NCBI GenBank assembly: GCA_913030835.1
Contig: CAJWDP010000032.1
Location: 1-35,748, forward strand
Direction of reading: 5' to 3'
From: an uncultured Flavobacteriales bacterium
Lineage (GTDB): Bacteria; Bacteroidota; Bacteroidia; Flavobacteriales_D; Parvicellaceae
DNA length: 35,748 nucleotides
This document shows positions 6,506 through 28,678 of this stretch, one piece after another. Every line of letters starts with the position of its first letter. Position 1 is the first letter of the stretch. The position numbers and the translations under genes were made by a program. Under the pieces are notes generated by a model. The model made no database searches, was not told the origin of the DNA, and saw only the letters and a list, made by a program, of their open reading frames with translations.

Positions 6506-7814
6506 ACTAGATATTTTTCCGAAGCGGATCGACAATCTAATGCTGTTGATATATGCTGCATTTGTACTTCTCGGTTTGCTTACCATCTATTCTTCTGCTT
6601 ATACAGCCGATCTGCCGTCCCTGTTTTCATTGGAAAAAGAATATGGAAAGCAGGTCCTGTACATTGGTATTTCGATTGTTGTAGGAATGATCATATTACT
6701 CATTGACGGCAAATTCTTTATCAATTACTCCTACCACATTTACGGATTTATCATCTTACTGCTCATTGCTGTCCTTTTTACTCCTGCTGTTAAGGGTGCT
6801 CATTCCTGGTTCAAACTGGGAGGGTTTTCGTTGCAACCATCGGAATTTGCAAAGTTCGCAACCACGTTAGCATTTGCTAAATTGCTCAGCTCTCCAAACC
6901 GAAAACTAACAGACAACAAAACCCGATTTTATGCGGTAAGCTTATTGATGATGCCGGCTGTATTGATTACCCTTCAACCCGACCCGGGAACCGTTTTGGT
7001 GTTTGTGTCGTTTCTTTTGGTCATGTATCGGGAAGGAATGTCGGGAATCATTTTGCTACTGGGTTTGCTCGTAGCAGTAATTACCGTAATGACCATATTT
7101 ATACGCGATTCTGTCCTATTGTGGGGGCTTCTCCAGGGCCCTTGGATCCTGGTCGCATTTGCTTGTATGCTGTTCGCGGTTTCTATATTTGTGATTCGAA
7201 AAACAGTGCGGAAAAGACAACGTAAAACACAGGTGGTTCGAGCGATCTATGTGCTGGTGATTACCGTTGTAGTTTCCCTAAGCACAAAGTTGGTTCACGA
7301 ACATGTGTTTAGTGACAGGCATCGTGATCGGTTTGATGTTATTCTCGGCCTGATAGACGACAAAACCGGAGTAGGGTACAATCAGGCACAGAGCATGGCG
7401 GCAATAGCTTCGGGTGGAATCGTTGGTAAGGGCTACAGAAATGCAACGTTGTCGAATGATCAATTCAATCAGGTTCCGGAACAGAGTACAGATTTTATCT
7501 TTTGCGGTTGGGGAGAGGAATGGGGCTTGATTGGAAGCGTTCTTTTTATTGTTCTTTATATTACGATGCTGATCCGAATCATCATGATCGCAGAACGACA
7601 GCGGTCTCAGTACACAAGGATTTTTGGATACTGTACGGCCTGCATTTTATTTTTCCATTTCCTGATTAATATTGGCATGGTGATCGGCGTGGTGCCGGTA
7701 GTAGGAATTCCTCTGCCGTTTTTCAGCTATGGAGGATCTTCGATCATAGGCTTCACCATTCTCTTGTTTATTTTCCTCCGATTGGATTCAGAACGGATGG
7801 ATGTGCTGCGTTAA
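6489..7814 (+). CDS. rodA: Peptidoglycan glycosyltransferase RodA (SEDS family)
   Basis: SEDS-family polymerase that builds glycan strands from lipid II with PBP2. It is polytopic, with about ten membrane helices. Family segments include WFKLGGFSLQPSEFAK, LQPDPGTVLV, the periplasmic loop with the GYNQAQSMAAIASGG motif, and near the end GVVPVVGIPLPFFSYGGSS, the SEDS signature. At 441 aa it is longer than Escherichia coli RodA (about 370); the extra length lies in a charged loop around residues 225-270, common in Bacteroidota. The ATG at 6489 is inside the mrdA 3' end (17-base overlap). Its stop TAA shares bases with the stop of the convergent gene at 7811. Confidence 0.95.
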   Translation: MRTSGRLDIFPKRIDNLMLLIYAAFVLLGLLTIYSSAYTADLPSLFSLEKEYGKQVLYIGISIVVGMIILLIDGKFFINYSYHIYGFIILLLIAVLFTPAVKGAHSWFKLGGFSLQPSEFAKFATTLAFAKLLSSPNRKLTDNKTRFYAVSLLMMPAVLITLQPDPGTVLVFVSFLLVMYREGMSGIILLLGLLVAVITVMTIFIRDSVLLWGLLQGPWILVAFACMLFAVSIFVIRKTVRKRQRKTQVVRAIYVLVITVVVSLSTKLVHEHVFSDRHRDRFDVILGLIDDKTGVGYNQAQSMAAIASGGIVGKGYRNATLSNDQFNQVPEQSTDFIFCGWGEEWGLIGSVLFIVLYITMLIRIIMIAERQRSQYTRIFGYCTACILFFHFLINIGMVIGVVPVVGIPLPFFSYGGSSIIGFTILLFIFLRLDSERMDVLR

Positions 7815-8755
7815 AGTCCGTTCAAGTTAAGACTGTCGATGCTCCTTAAAGGATCACTTGTATTGAAAAAGTCAATCATTACAAAATTGGGAATATGGTT
7901 GTTGTATGCCCAGCAGGATCGGGCACGTGGTAGAAGGAAACTAACGTCATTGATAATCGCTGCATCATCCTGCTGAGGGGTAATGTCAGTAATAAAATGA
8001 TTCAATGTAAACAATGTGCCACCCGTATGGTTACCCCGAAATTTTTCACAATCGAACGTACTTGGGTTTTGGTGATCGTAATCTGTGTCGTAAATGAAGT
8101 TGTACATGTCGTGGATCTTTGGGTACGGATCGGTGCTCGCCCCATCGTCCATAAAAACGACCAGCCGTTTATTGGCATCAATCATTGATTGAAGTGTGGG
8201 CCAGGGAGAGGAGAAATCCTGTTCGTGCATGAATTCGTCCATCCCTTCTGCAGCAAATGCGGCCATTACCTCTCCGGGAGGCGCATCCCCTTCAATGGTG
8301 ATTGGAATCACCTCTTTAGGATGGGCAAGATAAAATGCCTTGATCTCATTCAAAACGCTTTCAAATGTTTCGCATCCAAGCGTCGGATCACCATGATATA
8401 CATAAAGATTGTCCGGAGCGCCGGAGCAGAACAGCCACCCTGTTGTGCTTCCTGAGGTATTGTACACTTTCAACCCAATTCCTCGAACGCCGGCATTCAA
8501 TTGCTCTGTGATGTCTCCGTCCTGATTGGCTGCGAGCGAGCTAAAATCTGCGAGATCAGCATGCGCATTATGCGTCATTAGATAGGAAACCTCATTGAAT
8601 CTTTTGGCGCATAGCTCGGGATGCAAATTACATGTGTCTGTGATTGCACCTGACGAATTGCCTCCCGATGGACATTCCTCTGTATTTCGATCCTCCTTTT
8701 TGCATTGAATAATGCAGACGGATACAAGCAAAATGAATACTACTCTATAGCTCAT
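7811..8755 (-). CDS. PI-PLC-like phosphodiesterase, predicted lipoprotein
   Basis: Resembles the PLC-like TIM-barrel phosphodiesterase superfamily (phosphatidylinositol-specific phospholipase C X region). Visible signs: a hydrophobic signal with possible lipobox IIQC (C18, followed by Lys-Lys), a Cys-containing linker, then THNAH with H62, GVR with R91, and YHG with H121. These correspond to the two catalytic histidines and the arginine of the family. The Asp that usually follows the arginine (LDIDVY-type) is replaced: the segment here reads GLKVY. Substrate is unknown; homologues act on phospholipids or are uncharacterised surface proteins. It lies 46 bases after folA on the same strand and may be read from the thyA promoter. 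Gln before C18 is unusual for a lipobox, so lipidation is uncertain. Confidence 0.78.
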   Translation of the reverse strand: MSYRVVFILLVSVCIIQCKKEDRNTEECPSGGNSSGAITDTCNLHPELCAKRFNEVSYLMTHNAHADLADFSSLAANQDGDITEQLNAGVRGIGLKVYNTSGSTTGWLFCSGAPDNLYVYHGDPTLGCETFESVLNEIKAFYLAHPKEVIPITIEGDAPPGEVMAAFAAEGMDEFMHEQDFSSPWPTLQSMIDANKRLVVFMDDGASTDPYPKIHDMYNFIYDTDYDHQNPSTFDCEKFRGNHTGGTLFTLNHFITDITPQQDDAAIINDVSFLLPRARSCWAYNNHIPNFVMIDFFNTSDPLRSIDSLNLNGL

Positions 8756-15850: not shown

Positions 15851-18283
15851 ATGGAAAATTTAATCTACATCCTTCCCGGCTTCGGAATTCTGGGATTGTT
15901 ATACATGTTATACTTGTCTGTATGGGTCAAAAAACAGAATGCAGGAAGTGACAAAATGAAAAAATTATCAGGCTACATTGCTACAGGGGCATTGGCATTT
16001 TTGAAAGCAGAATATAGAATGCTGGCTGTATTTGTGGTGATAGCCGGAGGTGCACTCGGTGTTTTATCCGGACTGGATTACATTCCTGCCGGAATGTACA
16101 TTGTTGTTGCCTTTGTTATTGGCGCAGTTTTTTCTGCTGTCGCTGGTAATATTGGTATGCGTATTGCCACTAAGGCAAATGTTAGAACCGCTGAAGCTGC
16201 AAAGACAAGTCTACCTCAGGCAATGAAGGTTGCATTTAGAGGAGGAACGGTAATGGGACTTGGTGTAGCAGGTTTGGCTGTATTCGGTCTATCAGCAATT
16301 TTCTTATTCCTGGTTATGAACAAGGGAGAAGCAGATACGATGGAAGTGATCCTTGAAACATTGGCCGGTTTTTCTTTGGGTGCTGAGTGTATTGCATTGT
16401 TCGCTAGAGTAGGTGGTGGAATTTATACGAAAGCAGCCGATGTTGGCGCCGATCTTGTAGGAAAGGTAGAAGCCGGTATTCCTGAAGATGACCCAAGAAA
16501 CCCCGCTACGATTGCAGACAACGTTGGAGACAACGTAGGAGATGTTGCCGGAATGGGTGCAGATCTTTTTGGTTCTTATGTAGCTACCATGCTTGCGGCT
16601 ATGGTTCTTGGGAATTATGTAATTCGAGATATTGCATCTGCAAGCGGTGAGGCCTTTACCGACTCATTTGGCGGATTAGGACCGATTTTGATGCCAGTAT
16701 TAATTGCCGGTGTCGGGTTGATCTTCTCTATTGTTGGAACATGGGTAATCAGGATTAAGAACAACGAAGCAAAGGAAAAGCAGGTTCAAGGAGCGTTCAA
16801 CCTAGGAAACTGGGGATCGATCGTTTTAACGGGTATAGCATCTTATTTTATTATTCAATACATGTTACCTCCGGTTATGGAAATGAAGTTCTTTGGTGAA
16901 GGATTTCAAACCATAACTTCCATGAATGTATTTTATGCAGTACTGATCGGTTTGGCTGTAGGTGGTCTGATTGCGATGTTAACTGAGTATTACACGGCGA
17001 TGGGTAAAAAACCGGTTTTGGGGATCATCAAAAATTCCTCAACCGGTGCGGCAACCAACATCATTTCCGGTTTAGCATTGGGTATGATGTCTACTTTTGC
17101 TCCGATCATTTTGTTTGCTGGTGCAATTTGGGGAGCATATGCTTGTGCAGGATTTTATGGTGTTGCGATCGCAGCTTCCGCTATGATGGCAACAACTGCA
17201 ATGCAATTGGCCATTGATGCTTTTGGACCAATTGCAGACAACGCGGGTGGAATTGCTGAAATGTCTGAGTTGGATCCGGAAGTAAGAGAAAGAACGGATA
17301 TCCTTGATGCTGTTGGTAATACTACTGCGGCGGTAGGAAAAGGTTTTGCGATTGCTTCAGCAGCACTAACGGCACTTGCCTTATTTGCGGCATACGTTAC
17401 TTTCACAGGAATTGACGGTATCAATATCTTTAAGGCCAAAGTATTGGCGGCCTTATTCATCGGTGGTATGATTCCGGTAGTATTTTCTGCGATGGCAATG
17501 AGCTCTGTAGGTAAAGCGGCTATGGCTATGGTAAAGGAAGTTCGAAGACAATTCAAGGAGATCCCCGGGATTATGGAAGGTGAGGCTGAGCCGGAATACG
17601 ACAAATGTGTTGATATCTCTACGAAAGCTGCTTTGAAGCAAATGATGCTGCCCGGGATTCTAACCATTGTTGGTCCTCTATTGATTGGCTTTACGATGGG
17701 TGCTGAAGCATTGGGTGCTTACATGGCAGGTGTAACCGTATCAGGAGTACTTTGGGCAATTTTCCAGAACAATGCAGGTGGAGCATGGGACAATGCAAAA
17801 AAATCCTTTGAAGCAGGTGTTGAGATCGATGGTGAAATGACGTATAAAGGTTCTGACGCGCACAAAGCAGCCGTTACCGGAGATACGGTAGGAGATCCGT
17901 TCAAGGATACTTCCGGTCCATCCATGAATATATTGATCAAGTTGACATGTCTAGTTGGCCTTGTGATTGCTCCGATTCTAGGTGGAGGTCATTTGGGCAA
18001 CCATGGAAGCAATCATGCTACAGAGGCACACGTTTGCCCTCCGGGATGTAAAAAAGAGTGCTGTGCAGGTGCAGAAAAGAAGTGTGCTCCCGGTTGCACA
18101 AAGGAGTGCTGCGCGGGTAAAGAAAAAGAGAACATTGAGAAAATGGTGCTGAAGTTCAAAACAGACTCAACGGAAGTTATGGTGGAGTCCACTAACGGAG
18201 AGGTTGTTTGGACACCGGTAAAGCCTGACTCTTTATCTGAAGAAATGATTACTGCGTTGGATGAAGCAGGAATTGAATATTAG
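15851..18283 (+). CDS. hppA: Membrane-bound ion-translocating pyrophosphatase with His/Cys-rich C-terminal tail
   Basis: Hydrolyses PPi and pumps H+ or Na+ across the inner membrane. It has about 16 membrane helices. The substrate site is intact: [16 protein letters not shown] and DDPRN followed by DNVGDNVGD (D223-D231). [10 protein letters not shown] (A493, not Lys) is the signature of the K+-dependent subfamily, which includes Na+-PPases; the ion is not settled here. The family body ends near residue 710. A tail of about 100 residues follows: H714, H718, H722, H727, then two 16-residue repeats of CxPGC/KECC type with eight cysteines (C729, C733, C737, C738, C745, C749, C753, C754), then about 50 charged residues ending in an acidic helix. 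By family topology the tail should be periplasmic. It is monocistronic: own promoter, strong terminator at 18305-18335. Confidence 0.96.
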
Positions 18284-18385: not shown

Positions 18386-19063
18386 ATGAAAAAAAAGTTA
18401 GTTGTCTTAGGAATTGTAGGAGTTTTGCTCATTGGTCTTGTGATCGTGGCATATACTATTTTATTCCCAAATGAAAGCCTAGTGATGGAGGATCGGGATC
18501 TTTCACACTTACAGACCGATTCATCGGCGGTGGACGTCGAAGGTCAGATTCAAGGCTTTAATACAATGTTTGGTTCCTATATTTCCGTTCCGGATTCCAG
18601 TGAGCTGTTCTTTCTGAATGGTGGAGAAAAAGGCACGTCCGGAAGGTTTAATGACTTTGAGGTCAGTTTCGAACGTGACTCGACATCGGTTCAACCGGAA
18701 ATTTCTGTTGTGATACAGTCAAAATCACTATTTACTGACAATGACATCAGAGATAGTCATTTGCAGGAGGCTGAATTTTTCAATACTTCGGTCTTCCCGG
18801 AAATTACCTTTCAATCAACAGGGATTCAACAAACCGACTCAAACTATGTCGCAATTGGAGAAATGACTTTTTTGGGCGTGAAGGAAGAAATAAGTATTCA
18901 GTTTGACTACCGAGGTAGCGCAACCGATCCAAATGGAAAGCAGTACCACGTTCTTGAGGGTGGTTTTACTTTTAATCCCGGTGATTACGGAATGGATGTC
19001 GGGATGGTTATTGCCGACATTAGTGATGTTAAATTCTATCTGGAATTAATTCGATCAGAATAA
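18386..19063 (+). CDS. YceI-like domain protein, membrane-anchored
   Basis: A 225-residue protein from the ATG at 18386; a TTG 39 bases upstream in frame is a worse start because it sits almost on the hppA terminator. Residues about 4-23 form one hydrophobic helix (signal anchor or uncleaved signal). The remainder has the YceI lipocalin-like pattern: SSELFFLNGGEKGTSGRF, then the LQEAEFFNTSVFPEITFQST motif, and GEMTFLGVKEEISIQFDY. YceI proteins bind polyisoprenoid-type lipids in the periplasm; the ligand here is unknown. It converges on the deoxynucleoside kinase gene, overlapping its 3' end by nine bases. Confidence 0.8.
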   Translation: MKKKLVVLGIVGVLLIGLVIVAYTILFPNESLVMEDRDLSHLQTDSSAVDVEGQIQGFNTMFGSYISVPDSSELFFLNGGEKGTSGRFNDFEVSFERDSTSVQPEISVVIQSKSLFTDNDIRDSHLQEAEFFNTSVFPEITFQSTGIQQTDSNYVAIGEMTFLGVKEEISIQFDYRGSATDPNGKQYHVLEGGFTFNPGDYGMDVGMVIADISDVKFYLELIRSE

Positions 19064-19669
19064 ACCGTGTATCTCGGCATCAATACCCTGAATGATCTTA
19101 CCCAGATCTTCAGCATCTTCTTTGAAATTGTTTTCATCAACATCAATGATTAGCAATTTGCCTTTATCATAGGTTGAGATCCAAGCTTCGTATCGCTCAT
19201 TTAACCGTTTCAGATAATCAATACGGATACTTTCTTCGTATTCTCTACCTCTGTCGGAAATGTGGTTAACCAATGTAGGAATAGTTGATCTGAGATAAAT
19301 CAATAAATCAGGAGCTGAGATGAATGTTTCCATCAAATTGAATAAGGAAAAATAATTCTCAAAATCCCGAGTTGTCATGAGCCCCATGGAATGTAGGTTG
19401 GGAGCAAATATGTAGGCGTCTTCATAGATCGTACGATCTTGAATCACTGTGTTTTCATTTTCCTTGATCTCCTGGATCTGGGTAAATCGACTGTTCAGGT
19501 AGTAGATCTGAAGATTGAATGACCACCGCTGCATGTCATTGTAAAAATCATTCAAATATGGATTTTGCTCTACGTCTTCGAAATGTGTATCCCAGCCGTA
19601 ATGCTTGCTGAGAAGTCCCGTAAGTGTTGTTTTTCCCGAACCAATATTACCTGCTATTGCAATGTGCAT
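19055..19669 (-). CDS. Deoxynucleoside kinase (dNK family, copy 1)
   Basis: Phosphorylates deoxynucleosides to dNMPs for salvage. Features: P-loop GNIGSGKTT (residues 7-15), a substrate-binding E-x-x-E region (FEDVEQNPYLNDFY), the catalytic DRS-type motif D78-R79-T80 followed by IYEDAYIF, APDLLIYLRS, and a LID with DRGREYEESI. The 204 aa length is typical of bacterial dAK/dGK enzymes; base preference cannot be read from sequence. No TAnnTTTG element is seen upstream; the gap 19670-19763 separates it from the hypothetical gene on the same strand. A second family member lies at 28061. Confidence 0.92.
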   Translation of the reverse strand: MHIAIAGNIGSGKTTLTGLLSKHYGWDTHFEDVEQNPYLNDFYNDMQRWSFNLQIYYLNSRFTQIQEIKENENTVIQDRTIYEDAYIFAPNLHSMGLMTTRDFENYFSLFNLMETFISAPDLLIYLRSTIPTLVNHISDRGREYEESIRIDYLKRLNERYEAWISTYDKGKLLIIDVDENNFKEDAEDLGKIIQGIDAEIHGLF

Positions 19670-19763: not shown

Positions 19764-20585
19764 TTATCTGCTTTCCTCTATCCTGTATCGGTAAACCTTG
19801 CCCTTTTTTAGAATGTAGATGAGCGCATTCTGCACTGCGATCGAATCAAAGTCAGACAATGGGGTAGGAATAACTTTTTCGGTGAATAGGATTGCATTGT
19901 AAAAGTGGATAGAGTCGTTTTTGAAAGCAACAATGAAATTGTTGTACAGCTCAAAGTCATCCATTCCCATTAAATGTATTGTATTGTAATAGGTTCCGAA
20001 TACATCAAATACATGAATCCCGGTTTTCGGATTATTCAGGTACACCTTACTTTGATATTCTTTGATCTGTCTAGCCTGAATGGAATCAAGACCAATAATC
20101 TGGAGTAAATTACCACTGCGTTGTTCAATTTCAAGCTGTCTGCTTACCAGCAGTAATTCAAAATTCGATTGATCGTATAACCAAACTTTGTTGTCATTGA
20201 AACTTGAAGCAATCCGTGTAACCTGCTGCCAATCCAGCTGTTCCAAAGGAATGGTCTGGTCGACCTGTTCACTCAGGGTATTATCCGTTACGATGATCTG
20301 ATTAGAGCTCTTGTAAAAAATCAATGGCCGTAGAGCCAATGAAACGTCAAGCTGATCGATTTCGCCAAGTAATTTGTTGCTGTAGTGGAACATGGAGTCA
20401 CCTTTCGGACTGTACTTGATGATTCGCTCATTTTCAATTGAGTATAGGTAGCCCATTTTGTCCACTACGATATCTGAACCTTCTACAGCAAAAGAATCCA
20501 GAAAAGTAATTTCCTGTGCCCTAAGCTCGCTGACACTTAAGGACAAAATCAAATTAACGCACAGCCATAACCGAATCGAGCTCAT
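19764..20585 (-). CDS. Secreted hypothetical protein downstream of GH3
   Basis: Not recognised as a named family. It has 273 residues with a signal peptide (hydrophobic stretch about residues 5-19, likely cut after RAQ at 24). The mature part alternates short beta-strand-like segments (IVVDKMGYLYSIENERIIKY, KVWLYDQSNFELLLV, GIHVFDVFGTYYNTI, NALIYILKKGKVYRYRI) at intervals of about 40 residues, which suggests a beta-propeller of NHL/YncE type. There are few cysteines and no catalytic motif. Its start lies inside the end of the GH3 gene (32-base overlap), so it is very likely co-translated with it. Lipid or metabolite binding is possible but not shown. Confidence 0.7.
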   Translation of the reverse strand: MSSIRLWLCVNLILSLSVSELRAQEITFLDSFAVEGSDIVVDKMGYLYSIENERIIKYSPKGDSMFHYSNKLLGEIDQLDVSLALRPLIFYKSSNQIIVTDNTLSEQVDQTIPLEQLDWQQVTRIASSFNDNKVWLYDQSNFELLLVSRQLEIEQRSGNLLQIIGLDSIQARQIKEYQSKVYLNNPKTGIHVFDVFGTYYNTIHLMGMDDFELYNNFIVAFKNDSIHFYNAILFTEKVIPTPLSDFDSIAVQNALIYILKKGKVYRYRIEESR

Positions 20586-22068
20586 CTATTATATCTCTGT
20601 TGTTTGAAAGCCTGGGAACCTTATGTTGTCCACCTAGCTTTCCTTTACTTTTTAACCAATCATAGAACGTGCCATTTGGCATACTTCGTACAATTGGTGT
20701 GCAAATGGTCAGGTCGCCCGTCCTTTTCGCCTCATAATCGGAGTTCAAAGACATCAATGATTGATCAAAACACTGTATAAAGTACGCCAAATTTTTTGGT
20801 TCTCTTTCAAATTCGATCAACCACTCATGACCACCCGAACTTCCTTGGGTCATGTAGATCGGGGCTCCCGTGTAGTCTTTAATAGAAGCATCGCATGCTG
20901 AACATGCATTGGTCAGGGCCCGATTGACATTGTCTTCGATAAGCTCTTCTCCGAATGCATTAATGAATTGGTTGGTTCTGCCTGTCACTTTGATTCGGTA
21001 GGGTGCCCGGCTTGTAAACCGCACTGTATCTCCAATGATATAGCGCCATAAACCTCCGTTGGTTGAAATGACCATAGCATAGTTTACGCCCAACTCAATT
21101 TCCGACAGTGAATAGACCTTTTGATTGTCTTTGCCAAAATCTTCCATCGGAATGAATTCGTAAAAAATTCCATAATCCAGCATGAGTAACATGTCGTTAG
21201 AATCGGATTGGTCTTGTATTCCAAAGAATCCCTCCGATGCATTGTATGTTTCCACATAATTCATGGAATTACCCTGGATCAATTGTTTGAACTGAGCCCG
21301 GTAGGGTTCGAAGTTTACACCCCCATGCATAAAGAGCTCAAGGTTTGGCCAGATGTCACGAATGTTATCAGTTGAATTCAATTCCAGAATTCTGTTTAAT
21401 AAGACCATGGTCCAGGATGGCACTCCGGCTAGAATGTGCACATCTTGATTGGCCGTTTCTCTGGCCAAGCGCTCAATTTTTTCTTCCCACTGATCCATCA
21501 GTGCTGTTTCTTTGCTTGGCGTTCTTCGTATTTCACACCACCATGGGAGGTTTTTTATGATGATTGCACTGAGGTCACCAAAATAGGAATCCTTACTGAT
21601 GTGATTGATCTGGGCGCTTCCCCCCAGTATCAGATGTTTGCCGGTAAATAGTTTGGTTTTAGGGTGATTGTGATAATATAAGCCAAGTAGGTCTTTTCCT
21701 CCTTTGTAGTGGCAGGTTTCAAGAGATTCTTTACTTACGGGAATCAACTTGCTTTTTCCACTAGAGGTTCCTGATGATTTTGCGAACCATTTGATCTCAT
21801 TGGGCCAAAGTAAGTTTTGCTCTCCGGCTTTCAATCGATCCACAAATGGTTTCAGCTGATCGTAGGTTTGCAGAGGAACAGCTTCTCTGTACTGCGTATA
21901 GTCGGTGATTCGATCGAATCGGTTTTTTCTGCCAAATTCGGTTGCGTAAGCGGTTTGGATCAGACCTTCAAATACTTCACGCTGGACATCGTGCGGATGT
22001 TTCTTGAAGAGCTCAATTTGGTGAACTCGCTTCTTTATGATCCAGGAAAAGAGCTTGTTGAACGGCAT
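20554..22068 (-). CDS. GH3-family acyl-acid amido synthetase-like protein
   Basis: The GH3 family, named for plant auxin-responsive enzymes, adenylates carboxylic acids and joins them to amino acids or other amines. The adenylation motifs are intact: SSGTSSGK (98-105, ATP phosphate loop), YNASEG (275-280), GD with W341-R-Y (341-347), and TGRTNQFINAFGEEL (362-376). The 504 aa length matches bacterial members. The acid and amine substrates are unknown; plant hormone conjugation is not implied. It is flanked by a micropeptide gene 21 bases upstream and a secreted hypothetical protein overlapping its 3' end, all on one strand behind a TAnnTTTG element. Confidence 0.9.
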   Translation of the reverse strand: MPFNKLFSWIIKKRVHQIELFKKHPHDVQREVFEGLIQTAYATEFGRKNRFDRITDYTQYREAVPLQTYDQLKPFVDRLKAGEQNLLWPNEIKWFAKSSGTSSGKSKLIPVSKESLETCHYKGGKDLLGLYYHNHPKTKLFTGKHLILGGSAQINHISKDSYFGDLSAIIIKNLPWWCEIRRTPSKETALMDQWEEKIERLARETANQDVHILAGVPSWTMVLLNRILELNSTDNIRDIWPNLELFMHGGVNFEPYRAQFKQLIQGNSMNYVETYNASEGFFGIQDQSDSNDMLLMLDYGIFYEFIPMEDFGKDNQKVYSLSEIELGVNYAMVISTNGGLWRYIIGDTVRFTSRAPYRIKVTGRTNQFINAFGEELIEDNVNRALTNACSACDASIKDYTGAPIYMTQGSSGGHEWLIEFEREPKNLAYFIQCFDQSLMSLNSDYEAKRTGDLTICTPIVRSMPNGTFYDWLKSKGKLGGQHKVPRLSNNRDIIDELDSVMAVR

Positions 22069-22089
22069 CGTTTACCGTTTCTCTTTTTA

Positions 22090-22194
22090 TTACACTAAAA
22101 ACAGTATGCACCCGATTGCGAGTAATGCAAGGGTAACGTAGATATATCCTATACCAGCTGTTGATTCGTCAAAATGCTTTTCGGCCATAACCAT
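22090..22194 (-). CDS. Predicted 32-34 aa single-span membrane peptide
   Basis: Minus-strand frame from ATG at 22194 (MVMAEKHFDESTAG...) to TAA at 22090; a second in-frame ATG at 22188 gives 32 residues. It has a charged, hydrophilic N-terminus (AEKHFDEST) then one hydrophobic span of about 20 residues (IGYIYVTLALLAIGCILFLV) reaching the C-terminus, so it would be N-in or N-out tail-anchored. The gene lies 21 bases before the GH3 start and a TAnnTTTG element (22205-22212) lies 10 bases before the first ATG, so its mRNA would have almost no leader. The clean hydropathy and placement argue for a real gene; no homologue can be named. Confidence 0.6.
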   Translation of the reverse strand: MVMAEKHFDESTAGIGYIYVTLALLAIGCILFLV

Positions 22195-22204
22195 TGGTTT
22201 TTAT

Positions 22205-22212
22205 CAAAGGTA
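22205..22212 (-). promoter_or_regulatory. -7 element for the micropeptide-GH3 operon
   Basis: Minus strand TACCTTTG, an exact TAnnTTTG match. A TTG lies 15 bases further upstream (22228-22230), the same spacing as at etfB but shorter than the 20 of hppA. Confidence 0.5.
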
Positions 22213-27582: not shown

Positions 27583-28068
27583 ATGCAAGGCAGTGTAATC
27601 CTCGGTCTGGGCTCCAATTTAGGGGTAAGGGAAGATAACATCAGGCAAGCCATTTTGATGATCCAAAATTATGGAGAGGTTACCCATCAATCTAATCTAT
27701 ATGAGACATCTTCCTGGGGGTATGAATCGGAAAATAAGTACATCAACTCATGTATCGAATTAAATACTAAAATGGAAGCCAAAGAGCTGCTGGGTGCCAT
27801 GCTGAAAATTGAGTTGGAGATGGGAAGAACTCGAAATCCCGGAGGATATTCTGATCGCGTTATAGATATAGATGTACTCTTGTTTGGCGATCAAATTGAA
27901 AATAAAGCTACTATTCAAATTCCACACCCGGAAATGCACAATAGGTTGTTTGTTCTTGCTCCGATGAATGAGCTGGTCCCAAATAGAATTCACCCGATTT
28001 TTAAAAAGTCCATCAACGAGCTATACAATTTATGCTTAGATTCAACTCAAATTCAAAAAGTTGGATGA
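27583..28068 (+). CDS. folK: 2-amino-4-hydroxy-6-hydroxymethyldihydropteridine pyrophosphokinase
   Basis: Transfers pyrophosphate from ATP to 6-hydroxymethyl-7,8-dihydropterin in folate synthesis. From the ATG at 27583 the protein has 161 aa, beginning MQGSVILGLGSNLG, the normal HPPK N-terminus; an upstream TTG at 27547 would add twelve atypical residues. Motifs: YETSSWGYESENKYINSC, the metal and ATP site GYSDRVIDIDVLLFGD, and IPHPEMHNRLFVLAPMNEL. It overlaps the following dNK gene by eight bases. Confidence 0.95.
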   Translation: MQGSVILGLGSNLGVREDNIRQAILMIQNYGEVTHQSNLYETSSWGYESENKYINSCIELNTKMEAKELLGAMLKIELEMGRTRNPGGYSDRVIDIDVLLFGDQIENKATIQIPHPEMHNRLFVLAPMNELVPNRIHPIFKKSINELYNLCLDSTQIQKVG

Positions 28069-28678
28069 CCGACCGTTTATAGTGATCGAGGGAAACATTG
28101 GAGTTGGCAAGACCAGCTTGGCAAGGGCCTTATCCGAAAAATGGGGCTATTCTTTAGTTTTGGAGGAGTTTGAAGAAAACGAATTTCTATCCGATTTTTA
28201 TAAACCAGAGGTCAGCGTTAGTTTTCAAACAGAAGTTCGTTTTATCGTGGATCGTTTCAATCAGCTGAGAGAAGCGCTTGACGAAAATCAACCAGTTATT
28301 ACGGATTATTTTATAGAAAAGTCACTCATATTTTCAGAAAATAGTTTGTCAGCAAGGGAGTTCAATTTGTTCAGAGACTTGTACAGTATTTTGTTTGATA
28401 AGATAAGAAAACCCGATCTGTACGTATACCTCAGTGCTGACGTTGCTCGCCTTCGCAGTAACATCAGAAAAAGGAACAGGGGCATGGAACAGGAGATATC
28501 GGAATCGTATCTTGAACAGATCAACAACCGATATTTAAAGTATGTATCGGCTCATAAAGAGCTGAATTCCTTATTACTGGATGTTACAAAGTATGATTTT
28601 CTGACCTACCCGGAGCACTTGACGGAAATAGCCTCCTTGATTCAATCTAAATTGTTAGCAATTCAGCAGGTCAGATAA
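28061..28678 (+). CDS. Deoxynucleoside kinase family protein (copy 2)
   Basis: The dNK fold, 205 aa, with P-loop G11-N-I-G-V-G-K17-T, E36/E37 region (LEEFEENEFLSDFY), KPDLYVYLSADV and a LID-like KRNRGMEQEISESYL. Where copy 1 has Asp-Arg-Thr (the DRS/ERS catalytic motif), this protein has D82-Y83-F84, then IEKSLIF. The protein resembles the Bacteroidota dNK encoded next to folK. The start is TTG at 28061, inside the folK end (8-base overlap); no ATG lies near the P-loop, so TTG is the only reasonable start. Pterin/folate coupling is suggested by context only. Whether the Arg loss alters activity is unknown. Confidence 0.88.
   Translation: MDDRPFIVIEGNIGVGKTSLARALSEKWGYSLVLEEFEENEFLSDFYKPEVSVSFQTEVRFIVDRFNQLREALDENQPVITDYFIEKSLIFSENSLSAREFNLFRDLYSILFDKIRKPDLYVYLSADVARLRSNIRKRNRGMEQEISESYLEQINNRYLKYVSAHKELNSLLLDVTKYDFLTYPEHLTEIASLIQSKLLAIQQVR

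Follow-up and report, generated by a model that had tools for sequence, protein, structure and literature searches.

Which partners does a GH3-family acyl-acid amido synthetase keep in Bacteroidota, and what might it make there? The question is raised by a locus on contig CAJWDP010000032.1 (C32) of a Bacteroidota genome (3.14 Mb in 86 contigs, 99.95% complete); the whole analysed stretch of 35,748 nucleotides is called the window below. Five features of the window lie on the minus strand, in transcription order a TAnnTTTG element, a micropeptide gene, the GH3 gene, the gene of an exported propeller-like protein and a deoxynucleoside kinase (dNK) gene (Table 1). Sequence comparison makes it close to certain that these form a conserved unit, TAnnTTTG-micropeptide-GH3-propeller-dNK, in one Bacteroidota order. 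Our literature searches (GH3 in Bacteroidota, essentiality, OlsH and flavolipin genes, all in open-access papers) yielded no paper that we recognised as describing this cluster.

Table 1. Positions of the features, in window coordinates except for the last two rows
Feature	Position	Strand	Basis or place
TAnnTTTG element (TACCTTTG)	22205..22212	-	position scan and recurrence before relatives' micropeptide genes
Micropeptide, 32 aa from the second ATG at 22188 (34 aa from the first ATG, 22194)	22090..22188	-	open reading frame, alignment with relatives
GH3-family acyl-acid amido synthetase, 504 aa	20554..22068	-	Pfam domains, motifs, model
Exported NHL-like beta-propeller protein, 273 aa, signal peptide by eye	19764..20585	-	structure model and comparison
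Deoxynucleoside kinase (Pfam dNK), last gene of the cluster	19055..19669	-	Pfam and conserved position
OlsF-like protein	L272, 1033-2814		other contig of own genome
GlsA-like gene (by eye) next to GlsB	L273, 504-2268		other contig of own genome

We compared the neighbourhood of these genes in 60 genomes, the window's own and 59 relatives, which share descent, so that the counts given here and below are not independent. GH3 was present in 55 of them, the exported protein in 54 and both in 53. In 50 of these 53 the two genes adjoin: measured between match edges, 49 pairs lie no more than 200 bp apart and one pair 259 bp; two of the remaining cases have them on different contigs, and in the third both matches are fragments on different contigs. 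Each genome enters this tally with its best GH3 match and a single propeller match; rows of paralogues and two weak second matches to the propeller were left out. A clear micropeptide (E up to 3.5e-7, a limit that excludes the match in genome G045 at 2.3e-5 and weaker ones) was found in 38 of the 60 genomes, and all 38 copies lie on the same strand, 20-95 bp upstream of GH3. The original prediction had called for such a comparison across Bacteroidota, with absence of a conserved order as the outcome that would speak against it; the order is conserved. Its proposal of an operon of three genes stands in so far as the three are conserved together and falls short in that the unit has four, the dNK having been overlooked.

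That the dNK is the fourth gene of the cluster is indicated by its sequence (PF01712, 194.9 bits, over the cut-off of 27) and by its place: it begins 94 bp beyond the exported-protein gene in the same orientation, and the exported-protein gene in turn shares exactly 32 bases with the GH3 gene. In a position control on loci with the exported protein (reading frames were picked crudely, and locus L182, where the GH3 frame was not found, was dropped), the fraction of homologous pairs was 0.97 at +1 and 0.73 at +2, the place of the dNK, while the other five positions gave 0.01-0.07. The co-oriented upstream neighbour in the window, topB (24382-22295), occupies position -1, where just 0.04 of locus pairs were homologous.

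We also looked at 80 named loci, a non-random sample consisting of the best-scoring 80 of at least 588 confirmed GH3 matches, in a tally that omitted matches under 45% identity for lptB and dNK and under 50% for GH3. Results showed the exported protein in 38 loci, dNK in 38 (once on the opposite strand and once 2.4 kb past the exported protein), lptB upstream in 32, the micropeptide upstream in 18, and kdsB in 5; 4 loci have not one of these genes. Among the records that carry the micropeptide are Crocinitomix algicola (L142, which has no exported protein), Taishania pollutisoli (L159), other Crocinitomicaceae or Flavobacteriales records and a metagenome-assembled genome labelled Lishizhenia (L148); the named Lishizhenia strain L165 is without it. 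Some of the cluster probably predates the order, since five records labelled Bacteroidales or Lentimicrobium share GH3-dNK-kdsB, two of them (L193 and L217) with the exported protein between GH3 and dNK.

The TAnnTTTG element, which we read as the Bacteroidota-type -7 promoter element, starts 24 nt ahead of the conserved micropeptide start. Across the whole window the motif is at chance level (29 found, 30.9 expected). Among 62 micropeptide copies, the window's included, that were left after identical upstream regions had been merged, it occurs within 70 bp upstream in 52, 46 of these sites being at -20 to -27, and within 100 bp downstream in only 2. Shuffling the upstream regions by base composition (n=200) gave a mean of 3.7 and a maximum of 11 against the 52 real sites. 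Because the motif is conserved upstream and nearly absent downstream, the data suggest a transcription start just before the micropeptide and not between micropeptide and GH3, and the conserved gene order fits joint expression from that putative start. Sigma-70-like promoters are below expectation in the region (7 versus 10.5 by shuffle). Terminator-like sites number 6 against 3.7 expected; the minus strand has two of them, which are weak and intragenic, one being at 20338-20325 within the propeller gene.

The micropeptide has a polar N-terminus and a single hydrophobic span at its C-terminus, the span being judged by eye, as was the signal peptide of the exported protein. The other elements on which the original prediction was built, namely the TAnnTTTG motif, a peptide of 32-34 aa, a GH3 enzyme with all ATP motifs and the overlap of 32 bases, are borne out by coordinates, Pfam and motif conservation. 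The starts of the relatives' micropeptides align with the second ATG of the window and not with the first, their length is near-constant, and the consensus over 28 sequences is approximately M[SA]D..F..[ST]T...G[YT]IY....L.II..I..[FW]G, with F6 invariant and D3 and G14 conserved in at least 90%. The pN/pS of 0.11 (pS 0.473, pN 0.050), from 77 pooled related pairs that include some from one genome fetched twice, indicates that the peptide is under purifying selection. At E up to 0.01 it was counted, irrespective of adjacency, in 168 of 245 genomes of the order with at least 90% completeness. In 345 genomes of the phylum, at E up to 0.001, only two had it, the window's own and one more of the same order; therefore, at the search sensitivity used, the micropeptide looks restricted to the order.

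CydX, AcrZ and KdpF are small single-span bacterial membrane proteins that the micropeptide resembles in size and in its one hydrophobic span. It differs from them in sitting upstream of GH3 and in having no Pfam or NCBIfam match up to E 1; when 17 members were compared with Pfam, five families appeared at best E values of 0.08-0.49, each matched by at most two members. Some copies at GH3 loci have a His-rich N-terminus (L151, L168). The weak matches in genomes G045 and G055 proved to be His-rich variants with a similar span; they lie away from GH3, by unrelated genes that suggest no function for them. His-rich micropeptide-like genes unlinked to GH3 were noted at L231 952-1107 and L235 3049-3195, with thymidine-kinase-like and short-chain-dehydrogenase-like genes nearby (by eye).

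The GH3 gene product passes the Pfam cut-off of 23.6 bits with each of the GH3 N-terminal, central and C-terminal domains (223.1, 72.3 and 89 bits). Using the three-motif definition of a paper on bacterial GH3 proteins (PMC12493201), the three ATP (nucleotide-binding) motifs are SSGTSSGKSK, YNASEG and GLWRYIIGD; among 20 orthologues, 16 of the 25 motif positions do not vary and a further 3 are conserved in at least 90%. The model (pLDDT 87, pTM 0.82, with residues 101-103 of motif 1 under pLDDT 50) finds its best matches among plant GH3 amido synthetases (E 3e-30), and domains, motifs and predicted fold together identify the protein as GH3. It is alike in fold and sequence profile to the plant enzymes GH3.5, GH3.6, GH3.12 and JAR1 at about 20% identity; those conjugate hormones or benzoates, whereas the bacterial gene is near-universal in its class, as described below. 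A possible amphipathic membrane helix at its N-terminus (MPFNxIFSWxIKKRxHQI) is conserved but was rejected, with a best hydrophobic moment of 0.31 against 0.63 in the protein's own top helices.

In the window's own genome this is the sole PF03321 match. Each of the 23 relatives that belong to other families (G037-G059) carries between two and four, a few fragments included; paralogue groups were defined by identity. A second paralogue group (L219 2935-7427, L220 421-5378, L224 1610-5831, L227 1531-5397) has a recurring context of its own, with an M23 peptidase upstream in three of the four loci and a DUF1573/VWA-type protein downstream in three (one of each confirmed by Pfam, the others by eye) and RseP-like or Dxr-like genes in two (by eye).

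The original guess of a propeller-like exported protein agrees with the fold prediction that had been suggested as its check. The model, built from 34 sequences, is all-beta behind a signal-peptide-like helix (pLDDT 93, pTM 0.86), and its best structure match is the NHL domain of Brat (Z 22.6 over 242 residues, rmsd 3.2 Å), with variants of the designed Pizza6 at Z 18-19. PorZ of the type IX secretion system came fifth in Foldseek as a partial fit (TM 0.48 on the query). We conclude from this confident model that the protein is an NHL-like beta-propeller; the comparison yields the fold and is silent on a ligand. We assume six blades from the Pizza6 matches and not from a blade count. While sharing the fold with the NHL propellers Brat and TRIM2, with Pizza6 and, more distantly, with PorZ, it has about 10% identity, is exported and carries motifs of its own, such as LDNTLS and GILVFDIFGTY. 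It has no NCBIfam match and one sub-threshold Pfam match (NosD, 12.2 of 23.6 bits). Across 34 members, Pfam hits up to E 0.1 are scattered and weak over 18 families (best E 0.0016), none common to more than two members and NHL not among them.

The propeller occurs in 67 of the 345 phylum genomes at E up to 0.001. Outside the order we considered the best 28 loci of 64 genomes: 18 have it behind an LpxH-like gene, 8 before a dNK and 2 in neither context, and none has GH3 within flanks of about 1.5 kb. These loci bear on the idea that the three proteins form a dedicated system, in which an acyl amide made by GH3 would be bound, exported or sensed by micropeptide and exported propeller. Such a system would account for the tight linkage and overlap of the genes, for the placement of every clear micropeptide at GH3 and for the adjoining of GH3 and propeller in the two Bacteroidales records outside the order (L193, L217). 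We nonetheless find it improbable, given the propeller loci without GH3, the GH3 loci without a propeller in 26 of 28 own-class genomes besides the window's own, the His-rich micropeptide-like genes apart from GH3 in G045 and G055 and the lack of a clear micropeptide in 17 of the 55 GH3 genomes. The original suggestion that the peptide or the exported protein handles the ligase product found no support and is retained only as possible, because each component occurs without the others: there are propeller genes that follow an LpxH-like gene where GH3 is missing, and GH3 genes that follow lptB where the propeller is missing.

GH3 itself has further contexts outside the order. The gene lptB codes for the ATPase of lipopolysaccharide (LPS) export. 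In the 32 named loci with lptB upstream of GH3, 30 have it within 200 bp and two at 457 and 808 bp, and the position control for this class gave 0.88 at -1, 0.70 at -2 (recJ), 0.22 at -3 and 0.01-0.02 downstream. NCBIfam equivalog models scored over cut-off for three lptB proteins, one recJ and one kdsB. Of 118 phylum genomes, all 29 listed for the window's class (its own included) hold a GH3 of at least 46% identity, ten of other classes have a weaker homologue and 79 are without a match; 59 of these 79 are not among the genomes listed, and those listed, sorted by kinship, begin with other classes. Among the genomes listed, the ligase therefore appears near-universal in its own class. By our reading of the 28 own-class contexts besides the window's own, lptB is upstream in 10 (9 within 200 bp, one at 1.15 kb) and the exported protein with dNK is present in 2, both of the window's order.

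The interpretation that we favour, with belief and doubt about equally balanced, is that this class-wide GH3 ligase makes an amide lipid of the envelope. As in its family, the enzyme would adenylate a carboxylic acid with ATP and then form an amide by transferring the acyl group to an amine. The product would be a lipid of the envelope and would probably belong to the N-acyl amino acid or peptide lipids, though not to the glycine or ornithine lipids. We propose the envelope on the ground of neighbours: lptB stands before relatives of the GH3 gene, an LpxH-like gene stands before relatives of the propeller gene, and in some records kdsB comes after the kinase. The micropeptide might anchor or tune a membrane partner, possibly GH3 itself, the propeller might act beyond the inner membrane, and the kinase could be a passenger of nucleotide metabolism.

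Several observations weigh against this interpretation. The DNA-repair gene recJ stays with lptB and GH3 almost as well, and therefore adjacency need not mean a shared pathway. In 9 of the 28 own-class genomes GH3 is divergent from a DUF2797 gene (one confirmed by Pfam) and not from a gene of the envelope, an arrangement found in 9 of the 10 genomes of family f17, which we take for Flavobacteriaceae. Another 7 of the 28 contexts have none of lptB, DUF2797, exported protein or dNK. The LpxH-like protein scores under both LpxH cut-offs (95.6 of 134 and 81.4 of 190 bits), for which reason we keep the name at LpxH-like. The hydrophobic moment of the GH3 N-terminus is ordinary and so indicates no membrane-binding helix, the absence of a clear micropeptide in some GH3 genomes counts here as well, and a weak terminator-like hairpin at the end of the micropeptide gene (22124-22109), if real, argues against read-through. 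The GH3 score also falls short of the OlsH cut-off, as detailed below. The link of GH3 with DUF2797 in flavobacteria is already in print (PMC9425974).

Some of these points would be expected if the gene order were kept without a shared function, as a housekeeping run held by expression level, the micropeptide being promoter-proximal with an unrelated job, for example as a small subunit of a membrane complex. Both recJ-lptB-GH3 and GH3-propeller-dNK combine different processes, contexts change between clades, and unlinked micropeptide variants exist. We consider this explanation doubtful, though worth serious attention, as the adjacency persists while flanking positions drop to 0.01-0.07 and three different LPS-type genes stand beside members of the cluster.

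A guide to the product may be OlsH of the planctomycete Singulisphaera acidiphila (Sinac_1599), a lyso-ornithine lipid synthetase that forms N-acyl ornithine from free fatty acid, ornithine and ATP (PMC12493201) and is the only characterised bacterial GH3 relative that we found in print. With it, the original statement that substrates of bacterial GH3 proteins are mostly undefined needs one amendment and still holds for Bacteroidota. The window GH3 belongs to the same family, is of similar length, has the three motifs and finds its best NCBIfam match over its full length in the OlsH model (NF052613, residues 7-498). It reaches 413.5 bits against the equivalog cut-off of 620, and where OlsH has OlsI beside it, the window GH3 has micropeptide, propeller and dNK. 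The cut-off is likewise missed by a second orthologue and by seven paralogues from two other groups (274-432 bits), so that the model does not single out the window GH3. The alpha/beta hydrolase OlsI shares an operon with OlsH in planctomycetes, and for the present group the same source reports homologues of it away from the operon. In our data OlsI was not among the GH3 neighbours, which in the window are topB, micropeptide, propeller and dNK and elsewhere, where conserved, propeller and dNK or lptB and recJ; the rest of the genome was not searched for it.

The window's genome also encodes GlsB, which is over its cut-off (454.5 bits versus 300), with a GlsA-like gene (by eye) adjoining, and an OlsF-like two-domain protein that scores 434 bits against 620. 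GH3 thus seems dispensable in this genome for making ornithine-type and glycine lipids, and for this reason a glycine or ornithine lipid is less likely as the GH3 product. Across the relatives, the PF13444 N-acyltransferase (OlsB/OlsF/GlsB kind) was not found in 20 of the 60 genomes (12 of 34 near-complete ones), while GH3 was present in 55; GH3 therefore follows a distribution of its own and probably makes a product other than that of these enzymes. The authors of the OlsH study, too, think N-acyl ornithine formation unlikely for homologues of this group (PMC12493201). Taken with the missed cut-off, this leaves little room for an OlsH-type enzyme making lyso-ornithine lipid, best NCBIfam match notwithstanding.

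Another analogy comes from Olivibacter (Sphingobacteria), which forms N-acyl tyrosine and encodes GH3 homologues (PMC12493201); N-acyl tyrosine is thus one candidate product of the window GH3. Such a compound, or another N-acyl amino acid, might serve signalling or defence and not the membrane. We would be surprised if this were so, since near-universal presence in a class is unusual for a specialised metabolite and the neighbours include lptB, LpxH-like and kdsB genes.

Returning to the envelope lipid, a bolder form of that reading is a dedicated device in which GH3 forms an amide bond of a kind exemplified below, the order-specific micropeptide keeps ligase or lipid at the inner membrane and the propeller, in parallel with Lpt-dependent LPS export, acts on the product on the far side of that membrane; we think this has only a slender chance of being right. 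The bond may, for example, join serine to N-acyl glycine, as in flavolipin-type lipids, or acylate the sulfonolipid base. We know of no enzyme for such an amide bond in Bacteroidota lipids.

Beyond the cluster, three genes of the window were noted by eye. A membrane pyrophosphatase-like protein of 810 aa (15851-18283, plus strand) has a Cys-rich stretch near its C-terminus, whose appearance suggests metal binding and which seems out of the ordinary for a pump of this type. A second deoxynucleoside-kinase-like gene (28061-28678, plus strand), separate from the dNK of the cluster, overlaps a folK-like gene. The protein encoded at 7811-8755 (minus strand) is secreted and has a likeness to the phosphatidylinositol-specific phospholipase C family.

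In conclusion, the locus brings together two conserved families that are unnamed in the libraries used, a membrane peptide of about 32 aa and an exported propeller, with a ligase whose homologues are abundant in Bacteroidota. This phylum supplies almost 90% of more than 7500 bacterial GH3 hits, yet the paper that we found on bacterial GH3 leaves their substrates open (PMC12493201). The presence of GH3 in all own-class genomes listed, and its place or that of its partners beside LPS-export, LpxH-like and Kdo genes in several clades, would direct the search for its product at the envelope, where it may be tested by lipidomics.

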